DNA of 27,137 nt from a virus: the IMG/VR virus record IMGVR_UViG_3300046812_000348, positions 1 through 27,137 of that record; one strand, 5' to 3'. The notes under the pieces were generated by a model. It did no database searches and was not told where the DNA came from. It worked only from the letters and a program-made list of their open reading frames with translations. Both the position numbers and the translations under genes were made by a program. This document shows, one piece after another, positions 5,364-11,303 of the stretch (positions are counted from its first letter, which is position 1; every line of letters starts with the position of its first letter).

Positions 5364-6215
5364 TTACCTCCCCCGCCTGATCTGCTCCAGGTCGCGAACC
5401 GCTGTCTTCAGCGCGTCGATGTCGAGCTTTTCCAGCACCGCCTTGCGATCGTCCTCGGTGAGATTGATCAGGGCGAGGTCGGTTGGCTTGAGCGCACCGA
5501 TGCTGCGAATAACAAGCACATGACCCGTCATCGTCATTACAGTGCGAATAGAGTCCTCGGCGCCGCTGACGACATTCCGGGTTGCGCGCTCACGCTGCGC
5601 AAGTTCTTCCAGCCCGGCTTCTAGTGTAAGCCGCTCGTCCTCGACTAAGGCCGCAACATCGGGCGCAGCAGCACGTAGACGCGCCATCCGCGCCTCGCGG
5701 GATTTTCCATCGTCCTCGCCGGCGCGTGCCTGCTTAAGCGCAACGTCGAAAGGCATAACACCGAGGCGGACATTTTCTCCTGCGGCTTCCGAGTGACGTA
5801 AGATTTGGCGAGCCTGCTGTACCATGCGGACAAAACCCGAAGAGTCTTCGGGTTTTACTGCTGGGTCTTTATTCCCCCTGCCGCGCTTAACCTCCGGATA
5901 AATCGTGGCAAGCAACACAGCGCGTTGACCGTTGGAGAGATTGCGGCGCGATATGTTCGCCGAGACGATCAGCGCAGCGACGTCATGCCCGTTTGTTCTC
6001 TCGTAGCGCGGCTCTACCTTCGCACGGTCGCAAGCGTTGAGCCGATTTCTACCGTCTATCAGTACGCCCTGGTCGTCGATCAGTACGGGATGCAGTAGGC
6101 CGTTCGCCTTGATGTCATCCGCAAGGTCGTCAAGCTCATCATCCCGCATCATCGGGAACAGCGCCGCGAGCGGATGCACCTCGGTCGGGCGCCAGCCTGG
6201 ATCCCCGATCTTCAC
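5364..6215 (-). CDS. ParB/Spo0J-like domain protein
   Basis: The 283-residue protein has a ParB N-terminal-like (sulfiredoxin-fold) domain at about residues 10-90: HPLAALFPMMRDDELDDLADDIKANG, then PVLIDDQGVLIDGRNRLNAC. The DGRNRLNAC block at 54-62 corresponds to the conserved GxxR nucleotide-binding motif. Residues 90-200 are helical with NISRRNLSNGQRAVLLA, which resembles the ParB HTH region. Phage proteins of this group act as DNA-binding regulators, nucleases or CTPase-like clamps. No parA lies beside it in this window, so plasmid-style partition is not supported. It overlaps the gene upstream by ATGA. Confidence 0.75.
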   Translation of the reverse strand: MKIGDPGWRPTEVHPLAALFPMMRDDELDDLADDIKANGLLHPVLIDDQGVLIDGRNRLNACDRAKVEPRYERTNGHDVAALIVSANISRRNLSNGQRAVLLATIYPEVKRGRGNKDPAVKPEDSSGFVRMVQQARQILRHSEAAGENVRLGVMPFDVALKQARAGEDDGKSREARMARLRAAAPDVAALVEDERLTLEAGLEELAQRERATRNVVSGAEDSIRTVMTMTGHVLVIRSIGALKPTDLALINLTEDDRKAVLEKLDIDALKTAVRDLEQIRRGR

Positions 6216-6421
6216 GACCGCCCCCTCCTAAGTTCGTCGAGCACCACGCGAAGCCGAGATGCAAGCGGCGCCGGCACCATCTCAAAGCTACGCCAGCCCA
6301 AAACCCATGTCGGCCACATCAGCTTCTGCCCATTGGCATCGCGCGTGATGCGCCGAAACCCGCGGAACTCGTGTCGCTCCATGATTGTCCAGGGGCGTTC
6401 ATCAGCCACTCCGTCGCTCAT
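6212..6421 (-). CDS. Hypothetical 69-residue protein
   Basis: The product starts MSDGVADERPWTIMERHEF and is rich in Arg and Trp (RGFRRITRD, WPTWVLGW). The ATG at 6421 is chosen because GGAG lies at the right distance and the product then starts 20 bp before the end of the HTH gene; a start at the next Met is possible. The stop overlaps the ParB-like start by ATGA. No family is recognised. Confidence 0.55.
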   Translation of the reverse strand: MSDGVADERPWTIMERHEFRGFRRITRDANGQKLMWPTWVLGWRSFEMVPAPLASRLRVVLDELRRGRS

Positions 6422-6746
6422 GAAGCTTCTCCGCCAGTTCCTCAAGGATGCGCTCGGCGCGCTCTGGCGGACGGTCACTGAGCGACCGCATCTCCTTCCA
6501 GACCTCGTCGAATTCTCGGCAAGCTAGCGTCAGGGTATCGGCCCGTGGTGCGACCTCACCGCGCAGCAAAAGGGCTGCGCCGTTCGACGTTATGCCGAGC
6601 CGGATAGCGAGTTCTTTCGCCGGGCTTGGCGAATACGCCACAGCCTTCTTAAAGGCCTCGGCCAGGCGTTTGCGCACGAAAGCGTTCTGTGTTTGTCGAT
6701 CAACAACAATTTGGTCCGTCGGCGAAAGTGACATCGTGCCCCCCAT
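6402..6746 (-). CDS. HTH-like early regulator
   Basis: The 114-residue protein contains a likely helix-turn-helix at about residues 42-70 (PAKELAIRLGITSNGAALLLRG), with a long helix on each side. The N-terminal half has VDRQTQNAFVRKRLAEAFKKA, and the C-terminal half is charged (RPPERAERILEELAEKL). This would be a small DNA-binding regulator of the leftward operon, perhaps a CII-like activator by position, though the HTH match is only moderate. An alternative start at the second Met would remove four residues. Confidence 0.55.
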   Translation of the reverse strand: MGGTMSLSPTDQIVVDRQTQNAFVRKRLAEAFKKAVAYSPSPAKELAIRLGITSNGAALLLRGEVAPRADTLTLACREFDEVWKEMRSLSDRPPERAERILEELAEKLHERRSG

Positions 6747-6750
6747 CGGT

Positions 6751-6867
6751 TCAGTTTCCTGTCACCGGATGGAGCGATGTAATGGAGGTTAGACGCGTAG
6801 CTACGTATGCAGGCACAGCAAGCCGGCGCCCGATCCTTGGACCGGAGAGGGGCGTCGGCTTATTCAT
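6751..6867 (-). CDS. Possible 38-residue protein
   Basis: This ORF fills the gap between two early genes. Its ATG at 6867 overlaps the preceding stop by 8 bp and its TGA lies 4 bp before the next ATG. The product reads MNKPTPLSGPRIGRRLAVPA at the start and is moderately basic. The tiling with both neighbours is what supports it. Composition is unremarkable and no family is recognised. Confidence 0.4.
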   Translation of the reverse strand: MNKPTPLSGPRIGRRLAVPAYVATRLTSITSLHPVTGN

Positions 6868-7138
6868 TTCCGTCATCCCTGACGCCGAAGCCGCGCTTGT
6901 GCAGCGGCACGTCGGGGAGGTCCGGGGACGGCGGCGAAGACCTTTCCAGAATCATCCGCATGCCGCCTTGGTCGAGCCACTCGGCAAAGATTTTCGTGGC
7001 CTCTAAGTGCCCGATGTCGGTTCTCGCGATGGCGAATTGCGACTGGCGGGGCGCCCACCCCGCGGCGTCCACGAGCGCCATGAGCTCTTCTTGGACCTGA
7101 TTGGCCCACGCGGCATCGATGACGGTGGCGTCGCTCAT
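6860..7138 (-). CDS. Early protein with tail-fibre-like WAN-VQEE motif
   Basis: The 92-residue product begins MSDATVIDAAWANQVQEELM, followed by VDAAGWAP. This segment aligns with residues 37-65 of the tail fibre encoded at 15326-16591 (TVLDYDWANTVQEE and AGLTP), a motif common near the N-terminus of phage fibres and head-fibre-like proteins. The remainder is unlike the fibre. It is coupled to cro by ATGA, an unusual place for a structural motif. It may be a recombined fragment that gained its own reading frame; the role is unknown. Confidence 0.6.
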   Translation of the reverse strand: MSDATVIDAAWANQVQEELMALVDAAGWAPRQSQFAIARTDIGHLEATKIFAEWLDQGGMRMILERSSPPSPDLPDVPLHKRGFGVRDDGNE

Positions 7139-7371
7139 GCGGCGTCCTGTGGGAGTGATGTTCGTTTGATGGTCTGTAGGGGAAAATCGTCATCAGTAAC
7201 GGCGCTACTAGTGACGCGCTCGATCTCGCGCATCATCGCGCGGTCGGGAATGCGCTCGCCCGTAATGTAGCGATGCACGGTACGCCCGGGGTTGCTGCCG
7301 CCGATGCCGAGCATCCCGGCAAGCTGGGTCATCGTGATCCGGTTCTGCCTGCGCCAATCTTCGAGAGTCAT
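7135..7371 (-). CDS. cro: Cro-like HTH repressor
   Basis: The 78-residue product starts MTLEDWRRQNRITMTQLAGM, and residues 12-40 form an XRE/Cro-type helix-turn-helix (LAGMLGIGGSNPGRTVHRYITG). It is the first gene of the leftward operon and faces cI across an operator-filled intergenic region. The P-left -10 box ends only about 9 bases before the ATG, so the message would begin at or just before the start codon. By analogy with lambda, it would damp cI and early transcription in lytic growth. Symbol by position and fold, not by close homology. Confidence 0.75.
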   Translation of the reverse strand: MTLEDWRRQNRITMTQLAGMLGIGGSNPGRTVHRYITGERIPDRAMMREIERVTSSAVTDDDFPLQTIKRTSLPQDAA

Positions 7372-7379
7372 GGCGCAAC

Positions 7380-7407
7380 AAGATAGCCAATTCGGCTACT
7401 ACGTCAA
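7380..7407 (-). promoter_or_regulatory. Leftward early promoter P-left
   Basis: Read on the minus strand, TTGACG at 7407-7402 and TATCTT at 7385-7380 are separated by 16 bp. A palindromic operator lies inside the spacer and reaches into the -10 box. The same layout recurs at P-right. The predicted transcript start is at about 7373. Confidence 0.65.
7384..7398. promoter_or_regulatory. Operator 1, TAGCC-N5-GGCTA palindrome
   Basis: TAGCCAATTCGGCTA is a perfect 5-bp inverted repeat with a 5-bp centre, placed between the P-left -35 and -10 boxes, so a bound repressor would exclude polymerase. Likely bound by CI and Cro. Confidence 0.7.
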
Positions 7408-7416
7408 GCCGATACA

Positions 7417-7431
7417 TAGCCAAGTCGGCGA
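7417..7431. promoter_or_regulatory. Operator 2, imperfect copy
   Basis: TAGCCAAGTCGGCGA keeps the left half-site and three of five bases of the right half-site. It lies in the middle of the cro-cI gap, 33 bp from operator 1 start to start. A further half-site TAGCC follows at 7432. Weaker binding is expected. Confidence 0.5.
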
Positions 7432-7451
7432 TAGCCAGCCGCAGCGTTAAC

Positions 7452-7466
7452 TAGCCAAAGTGGCTA
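7452..7466. promoter_or_regulatory. Operator 3, beside the cI start
   Basis: TAGCCAAAGTGGCTA is a perfect 6-bp inverted repeat (TAGCCA/TGGCTA) ending one base before the cI ATG at 7468. It is well placed for autoregulation of cI. Confidence 0.7.
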
Positions 7467-7467
7467 C

Positions 7468-7881
7468 ATGCTGAAGAATGAACCTATCACGACGCGCCTG
7501 CGGGAGATTCGCCACAACCGAGGATACAGTTTGGCGGAGCTAGCTCGGGAAAGCGGCATTGCGGCGCCAACCATTCAGAAGATCGAGAAGGGCGTCACTA
7601 AGAATATTAGCCCCGCCCAAGCTCCCCGTCTCGCGAAAGCCCTCGAAGTCTCGATAGCCGAGCTCTACGCGGAGATCGGCTCAACCATCCGGCTCAAGCC
7701 TATTCGTCCGATCGTCCCAGTGCAGTCCAAGAGAAGCGGCCACCTGATCCATGAGCCGGATCAAATCCGCCTTATCGGGATCTGGGAGCGGCTGCCGCGG
7801 AACGCGCAAATGGCGATCATGACGCTCGCCCAGGTCATCGCAGATGCCTCCCCGAAGGACGGCCCGTCGAAAGTCGCTTAG
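7468..7881 (+). CDS. cI: CI-like phage repressor
   Basis: The 137-residue protein has an XRE helix-turn-helix at residues 8-65 (TTRLREIRHNRGYSLAELAR, then IAAPTIQKIEKG). A helical C-terminal part follows (about 96-130, QIRLIGIWERLPRNAQMAIM) resembling that of short repressors that lack a LexA-like autoprotease domain. No Ser-Lys cleavage dyad is seen, so induction would not go through RecA-stimulated self-cleavage. No ribosome site is visible; an operator abuts the ATG. It probably represses both early promoters and leads the transcript that continues into the HEPN pair. Confidence 0.8.
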   Translation: MLKNEPITTRLREIRHNRGYSLAELARESGIAAPTIQKIEKGVTKNISPAQAPRLAKALEVSIAELYAEIGSTIRLKPIRPIVPVQSKRSGHLIHEPDQIRLIGIWERLPRNAQMAIMTLAQVIADASPKDGPSKVA

Positions 7882-7984
7882 GCGAATGATCTCGCCCATC
7901 GTTTTGCCTCCCCTAATTTTCTTACCCCCGCCTCGGGGCGCGGCATGAAAGCGAGGCCGGGCCGCATAGGAAAGGCGTCGCGTT

Positions 7985-8437
7985 GTGATTGAGCGCCGGC
8001 GGCGCGCCCCCGAATACTGCTCGGCAGCCGATTGGGCATCGGGCGCGCGCCAACATGGAAAGGACGCCCAAACCCTTCTGGAAACCGGTAGTATGCGGAA
8101 TGCCTACTATCATGCCGGGATGGCAGTGGAATTCGCCCTCAAGGCAAGGATCATGCATACGGAAGGGCTGAACTCCTGGCCAACTTCCAAGACTCGCCCG
8201 GAGCTGTACACCCACAATCTAGGCGATCTATTGCAGGTGGCGAACCTCAAGCCAGCGCTTGAACAAGAGGTTGCTGACCTGTCGCCCTTGGGAATCGCCT
8301 GGTATTCGATGAAGGACTTCAACATCAATTTGCGTTATCCTAACGGGCGGCCTTTCCCAAGGCGCCGCGCGGTGGATGCGGTTCGCTCGATCACAGAAAT
8401 GGGGCTGGTGGAATGGCTGATCCGCGGCATTCTCTAA
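7985..8437 (+). CDS. HEPN-domain protein
   Basis: The 150-residue product starts with GTG at 7985 behind AGGAAAGG. Residues 13-60 form the HEPN pattern: SAADWASGARQHGKDAQTLL, then SMRNAYYHAGMAVEFALKAR. Arg38 to His43 gives the R-x4-H motif used by HEPN ribonucleases. The usual partner nucleotidyltransferase (MNT) is absent; instead an unrecognised gene overlaps its end by 25 bp. HEPN proteins serve as toxins in toxin-antitoxin and abortive-infection systems, so its place just after cI suggests a lysogen-expressed defence or addiction cargo. Nuclease activity is inferred from the motif only. Confidence 0.72.
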   Translation: MIERRRRAPEYCSAADWASGARQHGKDAQTLLETGSMRNAYYHAGMAVEFALKARIMHTEGLNSWPTSKTRPELYTHNLGDLLQVANLKPALEQEVADLSPLGIAWYSMKDFNINLRYPNGRPFPRRRAVDAVRSITEMGLVEWLIRGIL

Positions 8438-8895
8438 GCGAGGAACGAGCAGAAGCGGGCTGGCGCATTCTCGCGCTGATGGACGAGATCGGCTTCGACG
8501 CCCTAGCGGCCGCGTGGATCCATGACCGTCAGACCGGGAAGTGGTGCTATCTGCTCTCGACCCCCATGATTCTGACGAAAGGACCGATCTGGATATACGA
8601 ACGGCTGGCCCGCGTGTTTCGGCATCGGCCGCTGCCGCCTGGCGTCTCGCCGCTCGACATCACCGTCATTGACCCCGCGCTCGAACTGGCCCTGTTCGGA
8701 TCGCCGGCTATTGCGGTCAGCGGGACGCCGCCCGGCGTCCGAATTGTTGTGACCATCGAGATAAGCATAGAACATATCGGGGTGACTGACGGATTTGCGG
8801 CCTTCTTCCGTCGCGTTCCCCTCCCCCTTCGGGCGAAGAAGAAGCATCCAAGCCGGACATTCGACCACAAGGTTAAACGGCTAGAAGCTGCCTGA
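8413..8895 (+). CDS. Unrecognised partner of the HEPN protein
   Basis: The 160-residue protein overlaps the HEPN gene by 25 bp, so the two are probably co-translated. N-terminal residues 15-45 are helical (AGWRILALMDEIGFDALAAA) and followed by WIHDRQTGKWCYLL. A middle block has IYERLARVFRHRPLPPG and DITVIDP, and a basic tail follows (RAKKKHPSRTF). It has neither the GSx10DxD of MNT nucleotidyltransferases nor a known antitoxin fold by eye. It could be the antitoxin, a sensor or an effector subunit. The sequence ends shortly before the P-right operators. Confidence 0.62.
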   Translation: MADPRHSLSEERAEAGWRILALMDEIGFDALAAAWIHDRQTGKWCYLLSTPMILTKGPIWIYERLARVFRHRPLPPGVSPLDITVIDPALELALFGSPAIAVSGTPPGVRIVVTIEISIEHIGVTDGFAAFFRRVPLPLRAKKKHPSRTFDHKVKRLEAA

Positions 8896-8954
8896 TAGAC
8901 CGCGCCGCCCACCGTCCCCTAGCATAACCTGCCGGGCGCCCCGTCAACAATTAT

Positions 8955-8969
8955 TAGCCGATAAGGCTA
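8955..8969. promoter_or_regulatory. Operator 4, upstream of P-right
   Basis: TAGCCGATAAGGCTA is a perfect 5-bp inverted repeat identical in its arms to operators 1 and 5. It lies just upstream of the P-right -35 box and 32 bp from operator 5, which would allow cooperative binding about three helical turns apart. Confidence 0.65.
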
Positions 8970-8977
8970 CTTCTCTG

Positions 8978-9005
8978 TTGACTAAGTAGCCGATTTGGCT
9001 ACGCT
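8978..9005 (+). promoter_or_regulatory. Rightward early promoter P-right
   Basis: TTGACT at 8978-8983 and TACGCT at 9000-9005 are spaced by 16 bp with an operator between them. This copies P-left in spacing and in the bases around the operator. The -10 match is modest, so strength may depend on other factors. Confidence 0.55.
8987..9001. promoter_or_regulatory. Operator 5, within P-right
   Basis: TAGCCGATTTGGCTA fills the -35/-10 spacer of P-right. The repressor that turns off cro would therefore also turn off the recombination and integration operon. Confidence 0.7.
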
Positions 9006-9042
9006 CTCCCTCCATCGTTCACCATCGATGGAGCCCTGACAC

Positions 9043-9366
9043 ATGCCCGCCGGCGAGAATCCCGCGCCACCGTCGCCTAGCGTGGCGTCGAGGCTGTACC
9101 CGCTCACGGATGTCTGGTTCCAGACGAGCCGCCACGGCTGTCGGCTGTTGATGGCAGCGGATACGCCGGGGGTTGAGACCGAGATTTGTGTGGAGATGAC
9201 CGCCGGCGTCATTATGCGGCTCCGCCATATCGACAACATCAAAGGCCGCCGGATCTTCGAGGCCATCGAATGGGACCCGGCAGACGATCATGGCGTCGTC
9301 GCATCAGATGATCCCTTGGTGCAGCTCCAGGGGCCGTTTCGGGCGGGACTGCAAGATGCCGAATGA
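9043..9366 (+). CDS. Hypothetical first gene of the rightward operon
   Basis: The 107-residue product starts MPAGENPAPPSPSVASRLY with GGAG about nine bases upstream of the ATG. It has no transmembrane segment and a mixed beta-rich composition (CRLLMAADTPGVETEICVEM). Its place directly after the operator-controlled promoter makes it an immediate-early gene, and such first genes are often anti-host or anti-defence factors, but no family is recognised. The stop is followed by about 80 bp with strong palindromes and no convincing gene. Confidence 0.6.
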   Translation: MPAGENPAPPSPSVASRLYPLTDVWFQTSRHGCRLLMAADTPGVETEICVEMTAGVIMRLRHIDNIKGRRIFEAIEWDPADDHGVVASDDPLVQLQGPFRAGLQDAE

Positions 9367-9447
9367 GCGCGACGTGCGCGCCGACCGGACGTTAGCCGGC
9401 GTTGGCCGGACGCGCCCCGGGCCGGCCGCATTCCTGGCTCAACAGCC

Positions 9448-9720
9448 GTGAACGCTGAGATAGCCGTGCCGGGTGCAAGCGGCTCGGCGTCGTGGAAGCC
9501 GGCCTTTCCGCCAGAAGGGCCGGCTTCTATCGCGCAGATCGCTCGCTCGGACCGCCGGCAGGTCAGCGCGCGCACGCACAAGCAATGCAACGACTGCGGG
9601 CACACAAAGATGCTGGCTGAATTCACCACCTATACCGGCGAGCTTGGTCGGAGATACCGGCCGTACTGCAAACCCTGCGCAAGCGCCCGCACGCTGGCTT
9701 GGCATAGGCGGCAAGCATGA
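9448..9720 (+). CDS. Zinc-ribbon protein resembling HNH N-terminal domain
   Basis: The 90-residue product contains CNDCGHTKMLAEF, then RYRPYCKPCASARTLAWHR, the CxxC-x(n)-CxxC pattern found at the N-terminus of many phage HNH endonucleases, but no HNH motif follows. It therefore resembles a stand-alone zinc ribbon. The GTG start at 9448 lacks a clear ribosome site. The 5' part is coded by a perfect 10-bp inverted repeat, so the true start is uncertain, although no ATG lies further down in frame. It is coupled to the next gene by ATGA. Confidence 0.6.
   Translation: MNAEIAVPGASGSASWKPAFPPEGPASIAQIARSDRRQVSARTHKQCNDCGHTKMLAEFTTYTGELGRRYRPYCKPCASARTLAWHRRQA
9495..9527. repeat. Perfect inverted repeat, possible attenuator
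   Basis: GAAGCCGGCC at 9495-9504 pairs with GGCCGGCTTC at 9518-9527 around a 13-nt loop. A short CTAT, not a T-run, follows. It could be an RNA hairpin that limits or regulates the rightward operon, or simple coding sequence. Confidence 0.4.
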
Positions 9721-9872
9721 TCCATCCCGACATCATGCAGCTCGCCAGAGAAGAGGACCTCGCTGCCCTGCGCCGGTTCTATCGCCGGCGCCGCCACGCG
9801 CTCTACGTGCGGGTCGCCGGCACAGCAGTCGGAATTCTGGTGCTGTGGACTGCAATCATTTGGATCCTATGA
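9717..9872 (+). CDS. Small membrane protein
   Basis: This 51-codon gene starts in an ATGA overlap with the zinc-ribbon gene and ends one base before the ATG of the next. The product has an acidic start, a basic run (RRFYRRRRHALYVR) at about residues 20-32, and then one helix (VAGTAVGILVLWTAIIWIL) of about 19 residues to the C-terminus. The arginines predict a cytoplasmic N-terminus with the C-terminal end in the membrane. This topology suits a small early membrane factor; no specific family is recognised. Confidence 0.65.
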   Translation: MIHPDIMQLAREEDLAALRRFYRRRRHALYVRVAGTAVGILVLWTAIIWIL

Positions 9873-9873
9873 C

Positions 9874-10110
9874 ATGAACGAACAACCAGACCCGATCCTG
9901 GCCACGCTGCGGGAGCGCGAGGCCGAGCTGCTCACCGAGCATGCGCTTGCGACACAGGCGGTCGCGGTGGTCAACGGCCGGCTCGACGAGGTCCGCGATC
10001 TGATCGGCGCCATCACGCGGAAGCGCCCGGCACGCAAGCCGAAGGCTGCGACAGAGCCTGCGCGGGAGAATGGCGGCGACCTGCTGGAGACCCACCATGA
10101 ACCGGCATGA
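9874..10110 (+). CDS. Coiled-coil hypothetical protein
   Basis: The 78-residue product has a helical segment at about residues 8-48 (LATLREREAELLTEHALATQ, then GRLDEVRDLIGAIT) with heptad-like spacing, followed by a basic Lys/Arg/Pro/Ala-rich tail (KRPARKPKAATEP). The tail may bind nucleic acid. It lies two genes before the recombination genes and overlaps the next gene by 14 bp. No family is recognised. Confidence 0.65.
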   Translation: MNEQPDPILATLREREAELLTEHALATQAVAVVNGRLDEVRDLIGAITRKRPARKPKAATEPARENGGDLLETHHEPA

Positions 10111-10315
10111 TTTCCGCAATGCGATTTGCTGCCTTCACAACATCGACGCACATCAGCTTGTCGCCAGCGGCATTATCCACGACAGCGATGGCAAGGCGTG
10201 GCAGCGGTTCGCTTCCAACCCCGAGGCGTTCTTCCTCCGCCTCGACGACGCGCGTGCCGAAGCGCTGTGGGGACTGGTCGCGCGGCAATTGCAGCCGAGG
10301 GGCGTAGCGGCATGA
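10097..10315 (+). CDS. Hypothetical 72-residue early protein
   Basis: The product starts MNRHDFRNAICCLHNIDAHQ, chosen because GGAG lies upstream of the ATG at 10097; a longer frame would start inside the previous gene. It continues with IIHDSDGKAWQRFASNPEAF and a helical tail. This resembles small conserved phage proteins with a helix-strand-helix fold, often annotated without function. It is coupled to the following gene by ATGA. Confidence 0.6.
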   Translation: MNRHDFRNAICCLHNIDAHQLVASGIIHDSDGKAWQRFASNPEAFFLRLDDARAEALWGLVARQLQPRGVAA

Positions 10316-10533
10316 GCGCCATCGTCGAAATCCGCCTCGATTTCTCCCGGACGTTCGTTCCGCCCGGTGGCGATCGATATCAGCCGCTCAAGATCGCCGC
10401 GGGCCTCACTGTTGCGGTCGAGCCGGGCGAGGACGTCGAGGCGGTGAAGCGCACGGTGCAGATCGAACTGCGCCAGATTATCGAGGAGACGTATCGCTCG
10501 CAGGTCCGGCCGAAGCGCGAGGAGGCAGCATGA
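10312..10533 (+). CDS. Hypothetical 73-residue protein before ERF
   Basis: The product begins MSAIVEIRLDFSRTFVPPGG and ends with a helix holding VKRTVQIELRQIIEETYRSQ. The predicted strands followed by one helix suggest a small folded protein. ATGA overlaps connect it with the 72-residue gene upstream and the ERF gene downstream, so it is probably made in step with the annealing protein. No family is recognised. Confidence 0.6.
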   Translation: MSAIVEIRLDFSRTFVPPGGDRYQPLKIAAGLTVAVEPGEDVEAVKRTVQIELRQIIEETYRSQVRPKREEAA

Positions 10534-11303
10534 ACGAGGTCGCCACCGTCACCGCGTCCAACCTTCCCGCGCTGCCGGTGGAGCGCGTCCTGCAGGCCGT
10601 CATCGCCGCCGCGAGCGACCCGGCCGTCGACGTCGCCAAGATGCGCGAGCTGCTCGGCCTTCAGAAAGAGCTCATGGCCATGCAGGCGGAGCAGCAATTC
10701 AACGAGGCCTTTGCACGCCTGTCGCGCAAGCTTCCCCGCATCAAGAAAGACGGCAAGGTCGAATACAAGAACAAGCAGACCGGGCAGATGGAGAAGTCGT
10801 TCAACTTCGCCACGTGGGACACGATCGACAAGCACATCCGGCCGCTGCTTGAGGAGGAAGGCTTCACGCTGTCCTTCGACTCCGCACCGCGGCAGGGCGA
10901 TGGCGGCGGCATCATCGTCACCGGCACGCTGCTCCACATCGCCGGCCACAAGCGCACGGCGTCGATCCCGCTCGCGCTCGATAGCTCAGGCGGCAAGAAC
11001 AACATCCAGGGCATGGGCAGCACGTTCAGCTACGGCAAGCGCTACACCGCGACCGGGCTATTGAACATCGTGACCGAGGGCGAGGATGACGATGGCCACG
11101 CCGGCGGCGAGCGGTTCATTTCGCCAGAGCGGGCCGATGAGCTTCGTGCGCTGGCAGCGAGCGTCAAGCGTCAGGAAGGCCAGCTGCTCGACCAGATGTT
11201 CGGGGGCACCGTGCGCACGATGGATGAGGTTCCGGAGGACGCATACCTGCCGGTGAAGAACATGCTCCTCGGCATCCAGCGCGCCCAACAGAAGAAGGCC
11301 TGA
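10530..11303 (+). CDS. erf: ERF-family single-strand annealing protein
   Basis: The 257-residue protein has the ERF core at about residues 45-175: QAEQQFNEAFARLSRKLPRI, a basic KKDGKVEYKNK, then FNFATWDTIDKHIRPLLEEE, followed by GFTLSF and FSYGKRYTATGLLNIVTEGEDDD near 165-190. The last block is the conserved YG.RY.....l.i.t.eDdD signature. ERF proteins anneal complementary single strands and circularise or recombine phage DNA with a 5'-3' exonuclease, here encoded just downstream. A helical C-terminal part follows. Confidence 0.88.
   Translation: MNEVATVTASNLPALPVERVLQAVIAAASDPAVDVAKMRELLGLQKELMAMQAEQQFNEAFARLSRKLPRIKKDGKVEYKNKQTGQMEKSFNFATWDTIDKHIRPLLEEEGFTLSFDSAPRQGDGGGIIVTGTLLHIAGHKRTASIPLALDSSGGKNNIQGMGSTFSYGKRYTATGLLNIVTEGEDDDGHAGGERFISPERADELRALAASVKRQEGQLLDQMFGGTVRTMDEVPEDAYLPVKNMLLGIQRAQQKKA

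Follow-up and report, generated by a model that had tools for sequence, protein, structure and literature searches.

Introduction

Few toxin and defence components of prokaryotes are as common as HEPN modules, and the HEPN fold, two-gene modules built around it and HEPN-based defence by prophages are already known. In the HepT/MntA system, the HEPN protein is restrained by its small neighbour through AMPylation (PMC7641770). Whether the Class II pairs of this system are toxin-antitoxin systems was left open in the same study (PMC7641770). In the Tha/Ith system, a cI-driven HEPN protein with a cognate inhibitor can protect lysogens (PMC11087260).

AF0298-like HEPN-T proteins and AbiV lack the His of the Rx4-6H motif and have another conserved His in the stretch that separates helices 2 and 3, a pattern that Anantharaman et al. 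propose to be an alternative active site (PMC3710099). Many HEPN families also have an Ex3[KR] motif in helix 2, and HEPN domains devoid of conserved polar residues can be inactive and serve in binding (PMC3710099, Anantharaman et al.). HEPN proteins without the classical motif represent a recognised gap, and here one such protein with a putative alternative site is consistently paired with one unnamed family at more than 100 loci, E. coli prophages among them. This makes the activity of HEPN proteins without Rx4-6H, and the question of what restrains them, approachable with a few point mutants in a laboratory strain.

A gene pair flanked by operator clusters in a temperate phage

The locus lies in a stretch of 27,137 nucleotides (IMG/VR virus record IMGVR_UViG_3300046812_000348, positions 1 to 27,137), referred to as the window in the following. 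The element carrying it is a contractile-tailed temperate phage with genes for tail sheath, baseplate, integrase, Erf and exonuclease. DNA similarity between positions 6200-11300 of the window and known phages was confined to the erf gene. The two open reading frames proposed in an earlier sequence-only reading were found on the plus strand, together with their 25-nt overlap. The features of the region are the following:

7135..7371, minus strand: small divergent HTH gene in a Cro-like position (weak HTH_3 match, E 0.001, below cut-off)
7384..7466, strand not applicable: left operator cluster, three TAGCC-N5-GGCTA palindromes (at 7384, 7417 and 7452)
7468..7881, plus strand: cI-like HTH repressor gene, upstream of the pair (HTH_3 48.6 bits; phrog_8 transcriptional regulator, E 3e-13)
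7985..8437, plus strand: HEPN gene, 150 aa, GTG start (PF05168, 30.3 bits; predicted HEPN fold)
8129..8143, plus strand: codons of E49-x3-K53, acidic/basic motif of helix 2 (conserved in 85/85 homologues)
8213..8215, plus strand: codon of H77, which lies between helices 2 and 3 and is the probable catalytic His of the alternative site (84/85 homologues)
8333..8338, plus strand: codons of R117-Y118, end of helix 3 (R in 79/85, Y in 85/85 homologues)
8413..8437, plus strand: overlap of the HEPN and partner frames, 25 nt
8413..8895, plus strand: partner gene of an unnamed family, 160 aa, ATG start (full-length homologue on a Lichenicola plasmid)
8955..9001, strand not applicable: right operator cluster, two TAGCC-N5-GGCTA palindromes (at 8955 and 8987)
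8978-8983: -35 element TTGACT in the right operator cluster, seen by eye only and not reported by the promoter scan

The TAGCC-N5-GGCTA palindrome gave 16 strand hits versus 3.5 expected, a number reached in none of 100 shuffles. Five of the sites are near-perfect, and fewer than two mismatches were found nowhere else in the window. The left operators lie between the divergent HTH gene and the cI-like gene, and the right operators just past the pair, which agrees with the placement of the pair between cI and the P-right operators in the earlier reading. The cI-like gene, the HEPN gene and the partner gene form one block flanked by operator clusters on both sides. This layout resembles cI-rexA-rexB of lambda, with the pair occupying the place of rexAB. 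Promoter and terminator scans around the pair performed no better than chance. Its position on the same strand after cI and between the operator clusters suggests that the pair is probably made in lysogens.

Two neighbouring genes may be mentioned. A plus-strand gene a short way past the right operators (9448-9720) encodes a 90-aa protein that resembles endonuclease VII (phrog_1035, E 2e-8). The leftward operon contains a gene for a ParB-like protein (5364-6215, minus strand; phrog_21315, E 6e-19, and several ParB-like families).

The HEPN protein has a putative alternative active site

The assignment of the first protein to the HEPN superfamily was borne out. The protein matched PF05168 (HEPN-T) with 30.3 bits, above the gathering cut-off of 22, and its predicted structure (pLDDT 94) had the HEPN fold, with Z scores of 13.4 to 1ufb and 12.8 to AF0298 (2hsb). 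It also matched phrog_5737, a PHROG without assigned function, and was 44% identical to a homologue on a Lichenicola plasmid. A sequence search for solved relatives returned none, giving only spurious matches to bacterioferritin and designed proteins.

The sequence-only reading had placed the active site at an R-x4-H motif formed by Arg38 and His43. The letters are present, but they do not constitute the HEPN motif. R38 and H43 occurred together in 1 of 85 HEPN homologues, namely the window protein alone, and in the model they lie at the start of helix 2, whereas the motif site of the family is the end of helix 3 (PMC3710099). Conservation thus ruled them out as the active site. At the end of helix 3, where the classical Rx4-6H of HEPN RNases would be expected, R117 is present and no His was found at the right spacing.

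Other residues were almost invariant among the 85 relatives: E49 (85/85), K53 (85/85), H77 (84/85), R117 (79/85) and Y118 (85/85), along with aromatic residues at positions 106, 112 and 144. In the model, H77 falls in the segment linking helices 2 and 3, and R117 lies where helix 3 ends. The protein thereby shows the arrangement of AF0298-like HEPN-T proteins, with Ex3[KR] in helix 2, a His between helices 2 and 3, and a basic residue at the old motif. To judge from sequence, E49/K53, H77 and R117-Y118 match the alternative HEPN active site of AF0298 and AbiV. From this conserved set and the modelled fold similarity, we infer that the protein is probably an RNase. The misassignment of R38 and H43 means that the proposed R38A/H43A mutant would be uninformative. 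The informative residues are E49, K53, H77 and R117, and the residues to be targeted at the bench are corrected from R38/H43 to those of the alternative site.

The missing Rx4-6H at the family position leaves room for another interpretation, especially since HEPN domains without conserved polar residues can be inactive binders (PMC3710099). The HEPN protein could be the binding subunit of a non-catalytic complex that recognises RNA or nucleotides, and the pair would then be non-toxic and regulate phage or host expression. We hold this to be clearly unlikely. The near-invariance of E, K, H, R and Y across phyla goes beyond what binding alone would need, and the module is patchy and mobile to the same degree as conflict systems.

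The two genes are linked in both directions

The earlier reading had called for a search for co-occurring homologues. The window HEPN sequence alone found no homologue among viral contigs, and neither did the partner sequence. An alignment-based HEPN profile, however, recovered 37 loci from viruses and 223 from GTDB genomes, and the analysis was continued with the best 80 of the latter. An overlapping open reading frame, counted as the partner, was present downstream of the HEPN gene in all 37 viral relatives. In the best 80 of the 223 genomic loci, the downstream frame was matched by a partner HMM in 80 of 80 cases. This HMM was built only from 20 earlier pairs, and it did not match overlapping decoy open reading frames. 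Altogether, a partner was located downstream in 117/117 of the relatives taken (37 viral and the best 80 of 223 genomic), which come from many phyla; some genomic pairs were near-copies, and 95 partner sequences were left at about 90%. Consistent with this, an overlapping gene also follows the HEPN relatives of a Klebsiella phage and of plasmids from Acinetobacter and Rhizobium, and on the Lichenicola and Deinococcus plasmids the partner comes immediately behind a HEPN gene that it overlaps.

Since the HEPN profile was derived from paired genes, the search was reversed, and about 1,100 genomes were queried with the partner. A HEPN gene was located directly upstream of the partner at 22 of 25 loci and adjacent to it at 1 more, and the other 2 (L163 and L165) had an intact partner with the HEPN gene reduced to a C-terminal remnant or absent. 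These two loci, both of which look eroded, hint that the partner can persist alone. Decay was considered as a clue to which gene encodes a toxin. The HEPN gene was broken or lost with an intact partner at 3 loci, versus at least 1 locus with a broken partner, and this clue was rejected as the broken loci were too few.

We conclude that the HEPN gene and its partner form an obligate two-gene module with near-absolute linkage in both directions. The earlier reading would have been refuted by homologues that mostly lie apart, and on this point the result favours it. No fixed third gene was found beside the viral copies, where the 89 flanking genes were varied phage early and regulatory genes according to PHROG tallies. 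On the Acinetobacter plasmid pAJ4131 (L004:1235-3758), the genes preceding the pair are those of a BrnT/BrnA toxin-antitoxin system and a DUF6236 gene.

The overlap of the two reading frames is conserved

The overlap was exactly 22 nt in 89/105 pairs, and the frame register was the same in 102/105; the window pair overlaps by 25 nt. In the 22-nt class, the HEPN C-terminus W-[LI]-[KR]-x-[HY]-W-stop and the partner start M-x4-L-V are encoded by shared bases. The conservation of both protein ends across the overlap indicates that the arrangement is old. At the sequence level, the 22-nt overlap fits translational coupling.

The partner may have a degenerate nucleotidyltransferase-like fold

The partner had been described as neither an MNT nucleotidyltransferase nor a recognised antitoxin, and this description holds. 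The window partner had no match in Pfam, PHROGs, NCBIfam or PADLOC. Some of its relatives matched phrog_5760 (no function given), but the window protein did not. Its relatives include a full-length one encoded on the Lichenicola plasmid (E 3e-17) and another, on a Deinococcus plasmid, that is partial. Among 76 partners, none had the catalytic GSX10DXD motif and none matched PF01909, so that a true MNT was rejected.

The fold is nevertheless reminiscent of this group. The partner was modelled as an alpha/beta protein with a pLDDT of 81, weaker beyond residue 90. Its top Foldseek match, a weak one (E 0.044, TM 0.33), was 7ae2_B, the MNT chain of a HEPN-MNT complex. The best VIA-align matches, likewise weak, were the nucleotidyltransferases 2rff (Z 6.0, 97 residues, 3.7 A) and 1ylq (Z 5.4), followed by acyl-CoA synthetase, KH and BolA domains at Z 4.7 and below. 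A profile comparison of partners with MNT proteins, made with a small MNT set from the same genomes, was not significant (2/60 shuffles scored as high), and its aligned piece was out of register with the structural match. The models thus make a degenerate (dead) MNT-like fold possible.

The N-terminal half is the best conserved part of the partners, and the C-terminal halves are strongly variable. On the Deinococcus plasmid (L003:4989-6371), a DUF3800 protein carries the partner as its N-terminal portion. An actinobacterial partner (L077:5381-6193) has a C-terminal extension with a very weak resemblance to NERD nucleases (E 0.026, below cut-off), and long C-terminal extensions are also present in L122 and L108. 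In a SAR202 genome (L070:5384-7330), the partner frame continues in frame into a PurH-like protein (MGS and AICARFT domains). This is either a natural fusion or the result of the module having inserted at the purH 5' end.

Variable C-termini with lineage-specific additions (the DUF3800 fusion and the L077, L122 and L108 extensions) are what would be expected of a sensor, and they lead to the chief rival of a toxin-antitoxin-like or abortive-infection reading. According to this rival, the pair is a sensor-effector defence system: the HEPN protein alone would be non-toxic, and the partner would sense a phage component and be needed to activate the HEPN RNase. Activating partners of this kind are found in many two-gene defence systems. 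Carriage by prophages and plasmids also agrees with such a role, and HEPN proteins are common among validated prophage defence systems (PMC11087260, PMC9519451). We nevertheless consider it rather unlikely, as the partner is small, most of its relatives have no extra sensing domain, and its N-terminal rather than its C-terminal half is best conserved.

The module is patchy and mobile

The module is present in both bacteria and archaea, and its carriers include plasmids, prophages and viral contigs. It was detected in 3/385 genomes of an alphaproteobacterial class, in 4/37 genomes of the genus Methylomonas, and in 7/392 and 10/297 genomes of two phyla. The distribution of the module is patchy and mobile. 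In the HEPN tree, phylum labels required 34 changes (minimum 16), which suggests, rather than proves, horizontal transfer. The window HEPN protein fell into a supported branch (100/99) of 11 proteins, whose members with known host are all alphaproteobacterial.

In E. coli, one copy was present in 189/5,426 genomes, and the DNA was at least 99% identical in all 189 (60 records listed). Both copies that were examined reside in lambdoid prophages, in the nin region of the early lytic operon, with P/ren on one side and ninE/rusA on the other, and their annotation goes no further than "HEPN domain-containing protein" and "hypothetical protein". Given this placement, the position next to cI is just one among several and does not characterise the system. 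From both partner type and location, the sequence-only reading had suggested a distinct system that would exclude other phages or stabilise the prophage: the partner does belong to a distinct, unnamed family, but the location does not carry over to the E. coli prophages. Its assumption of expression in lysogens has to be narrowed in the same way. Lysogen-specific expression is suggested for the window phage only, and adjacency to cI is not general, given the nin-region copies of the two E. coli prophages.

The nin-region copies (2/2 examined) could also mean that the genes serve the lytic phase, in host takeover or counter-defence, and are carried by plasmids and chromosomes incidentally. We regard this as quite improbable, as most genomic relatives are located outside evident lytic operons in many bacterial and archaeal phyla, and the window copy is situated ahead of the rightward operators, on the side of the repressor.

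A proposed mechanism

We tentatively favour, at a little short of an even chance, a toxin-antitoxin-like or abortive-infection module in which a HEPN RNase is held by a non-enzymatic partner. The HEPN protein, probably a dimer, would be an RNase effector with an alternative active site. The translationally coupled partner would bind it and keep it inactive, and because the partner has no nucleotidyltransferase motif, inhibition would occur without enzymatic modification. Phage infection or loss of the partner would then free the HEPN RNase. What the analysis documents is the gene pair with its overlap and conservation, the conserved residues, the HEPN fold and the patchy distribution; the activity as an RNase, the binding and inhibition by the partner, the trigger and the lysogenic expression are inferred.

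This toxin-antitoxin-like or abortive-infection reading accounts best for the near-absolute linkage in both directions, for an overlap consistent with translational coupling, for the agreement of E49/K53/H77/R117/Y118 with the AF0298/AbiV site (Z 12.8 to AF0298 and 7.7 to AbiV), and for the patchy spread on plasmids, viral contigs and E. coli prophages. Faint as they are, the structural matches of the partner, one to the antitoxin (MNT) chain of a HEPN-MNT complex and the others to two further nucleotidyltransferases, point in the same direction. The pair also has the genomic hallmarks of type II toxin-antitoxin systems, namely two small, co-directional, overlapping genes that are jointly conserved on mobile elements. 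Several observations argue against the reading. The protein has no classical Rx4-6H, and lack of this motif can go along with an inactive binding domain; the resemblance of the partner to the nucleotidyltransferase fold is weak (Z 6.0, TM 0.33), with a profile comparison that is not significant; gene decay shows little asymmetry; and the E. coli prophage pair is located in the lytic early region, away from cI.

Comparison with known systems

The PADLOC candidate PDC-M28A matched the window HEPN protein with E 3e-9 and a weak score of 35 bits, and PDC-M28 models matched 0/76 partners. DefensePredictor reports four HEPN systems, of which its text names only one, and may already describe the module.

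The prophage Tha/Ith system of S. aureus (PMC11087260) likewise comprises a prophage HEPN protein with a cognate inhibitor, transcribed from cI in lysogens. However, Tha is a protein of 301 aa with R265-x4-H270, whereas the window HEPN protein has 150 aa and is devoid of the motif, and Ith is antisense, whereas the partner is encoded by a co-directional, overlapping downstream gene. The module is therefore distinct from Tha/Ith.

The closest folds, with Z scores of 11.9-13.4, are those of AF0298, TT1696 and TM0613 (PDB 2hsb, 1ufb and 1o3u), and AF0298 serves in the literature as the example of the alternative His. Unlike the module, these are structural-genomics entries without known function and without a partner described alongside. 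AbiV (PF18728; PDB 9bj5-9bj7) shares the HEPN fold, the absence of the classical His and the alternative His between helices 2 and 3. Its PDB title is "an RNase in a two-component antiphage system", and 9bj6 aligned to the window HEPN protein with a Z score of 7.7. The window protein nevertheless falls outside the AbiV Pfam family, scoring 17.1 bits (E 0.0066) against a gathering threshold of 27.1.

HepT/MntA (PMC7641770) resembles the module in that a small HEPN gene is located next to a small partner gene. Class I pairs combine an RX4HXY HEPN protein (PF01934/PF08780) with a GSX10DXD MNT protein (PF01909), and the module has neither component. On the HEPN side, it agrees with Class II, in which a PF05168 HEPN protein without RX4H has a conserved tyrosine. 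Both classes, however, have an MNT antitoxin with PF01909 and GSX10DXD, and 0/76 of the partners described here had either.

Within the libraries searched, the partner family and its near-obligate bond to an alternative-site HEPN protein appear to be new; the coverage of the literature was incomplete, and an earlier description is possible. More speculatively, and with considerable doubt, the module might represent a third HEPN two-gene class of bacteria and archaea, in which an RNase with the alternative site would be restrained by a pseudo-nucleotidyltransferase through binding only, not by AMPylation, and in which the two frames would be locked together by the dual-coding 22-nt overlap.
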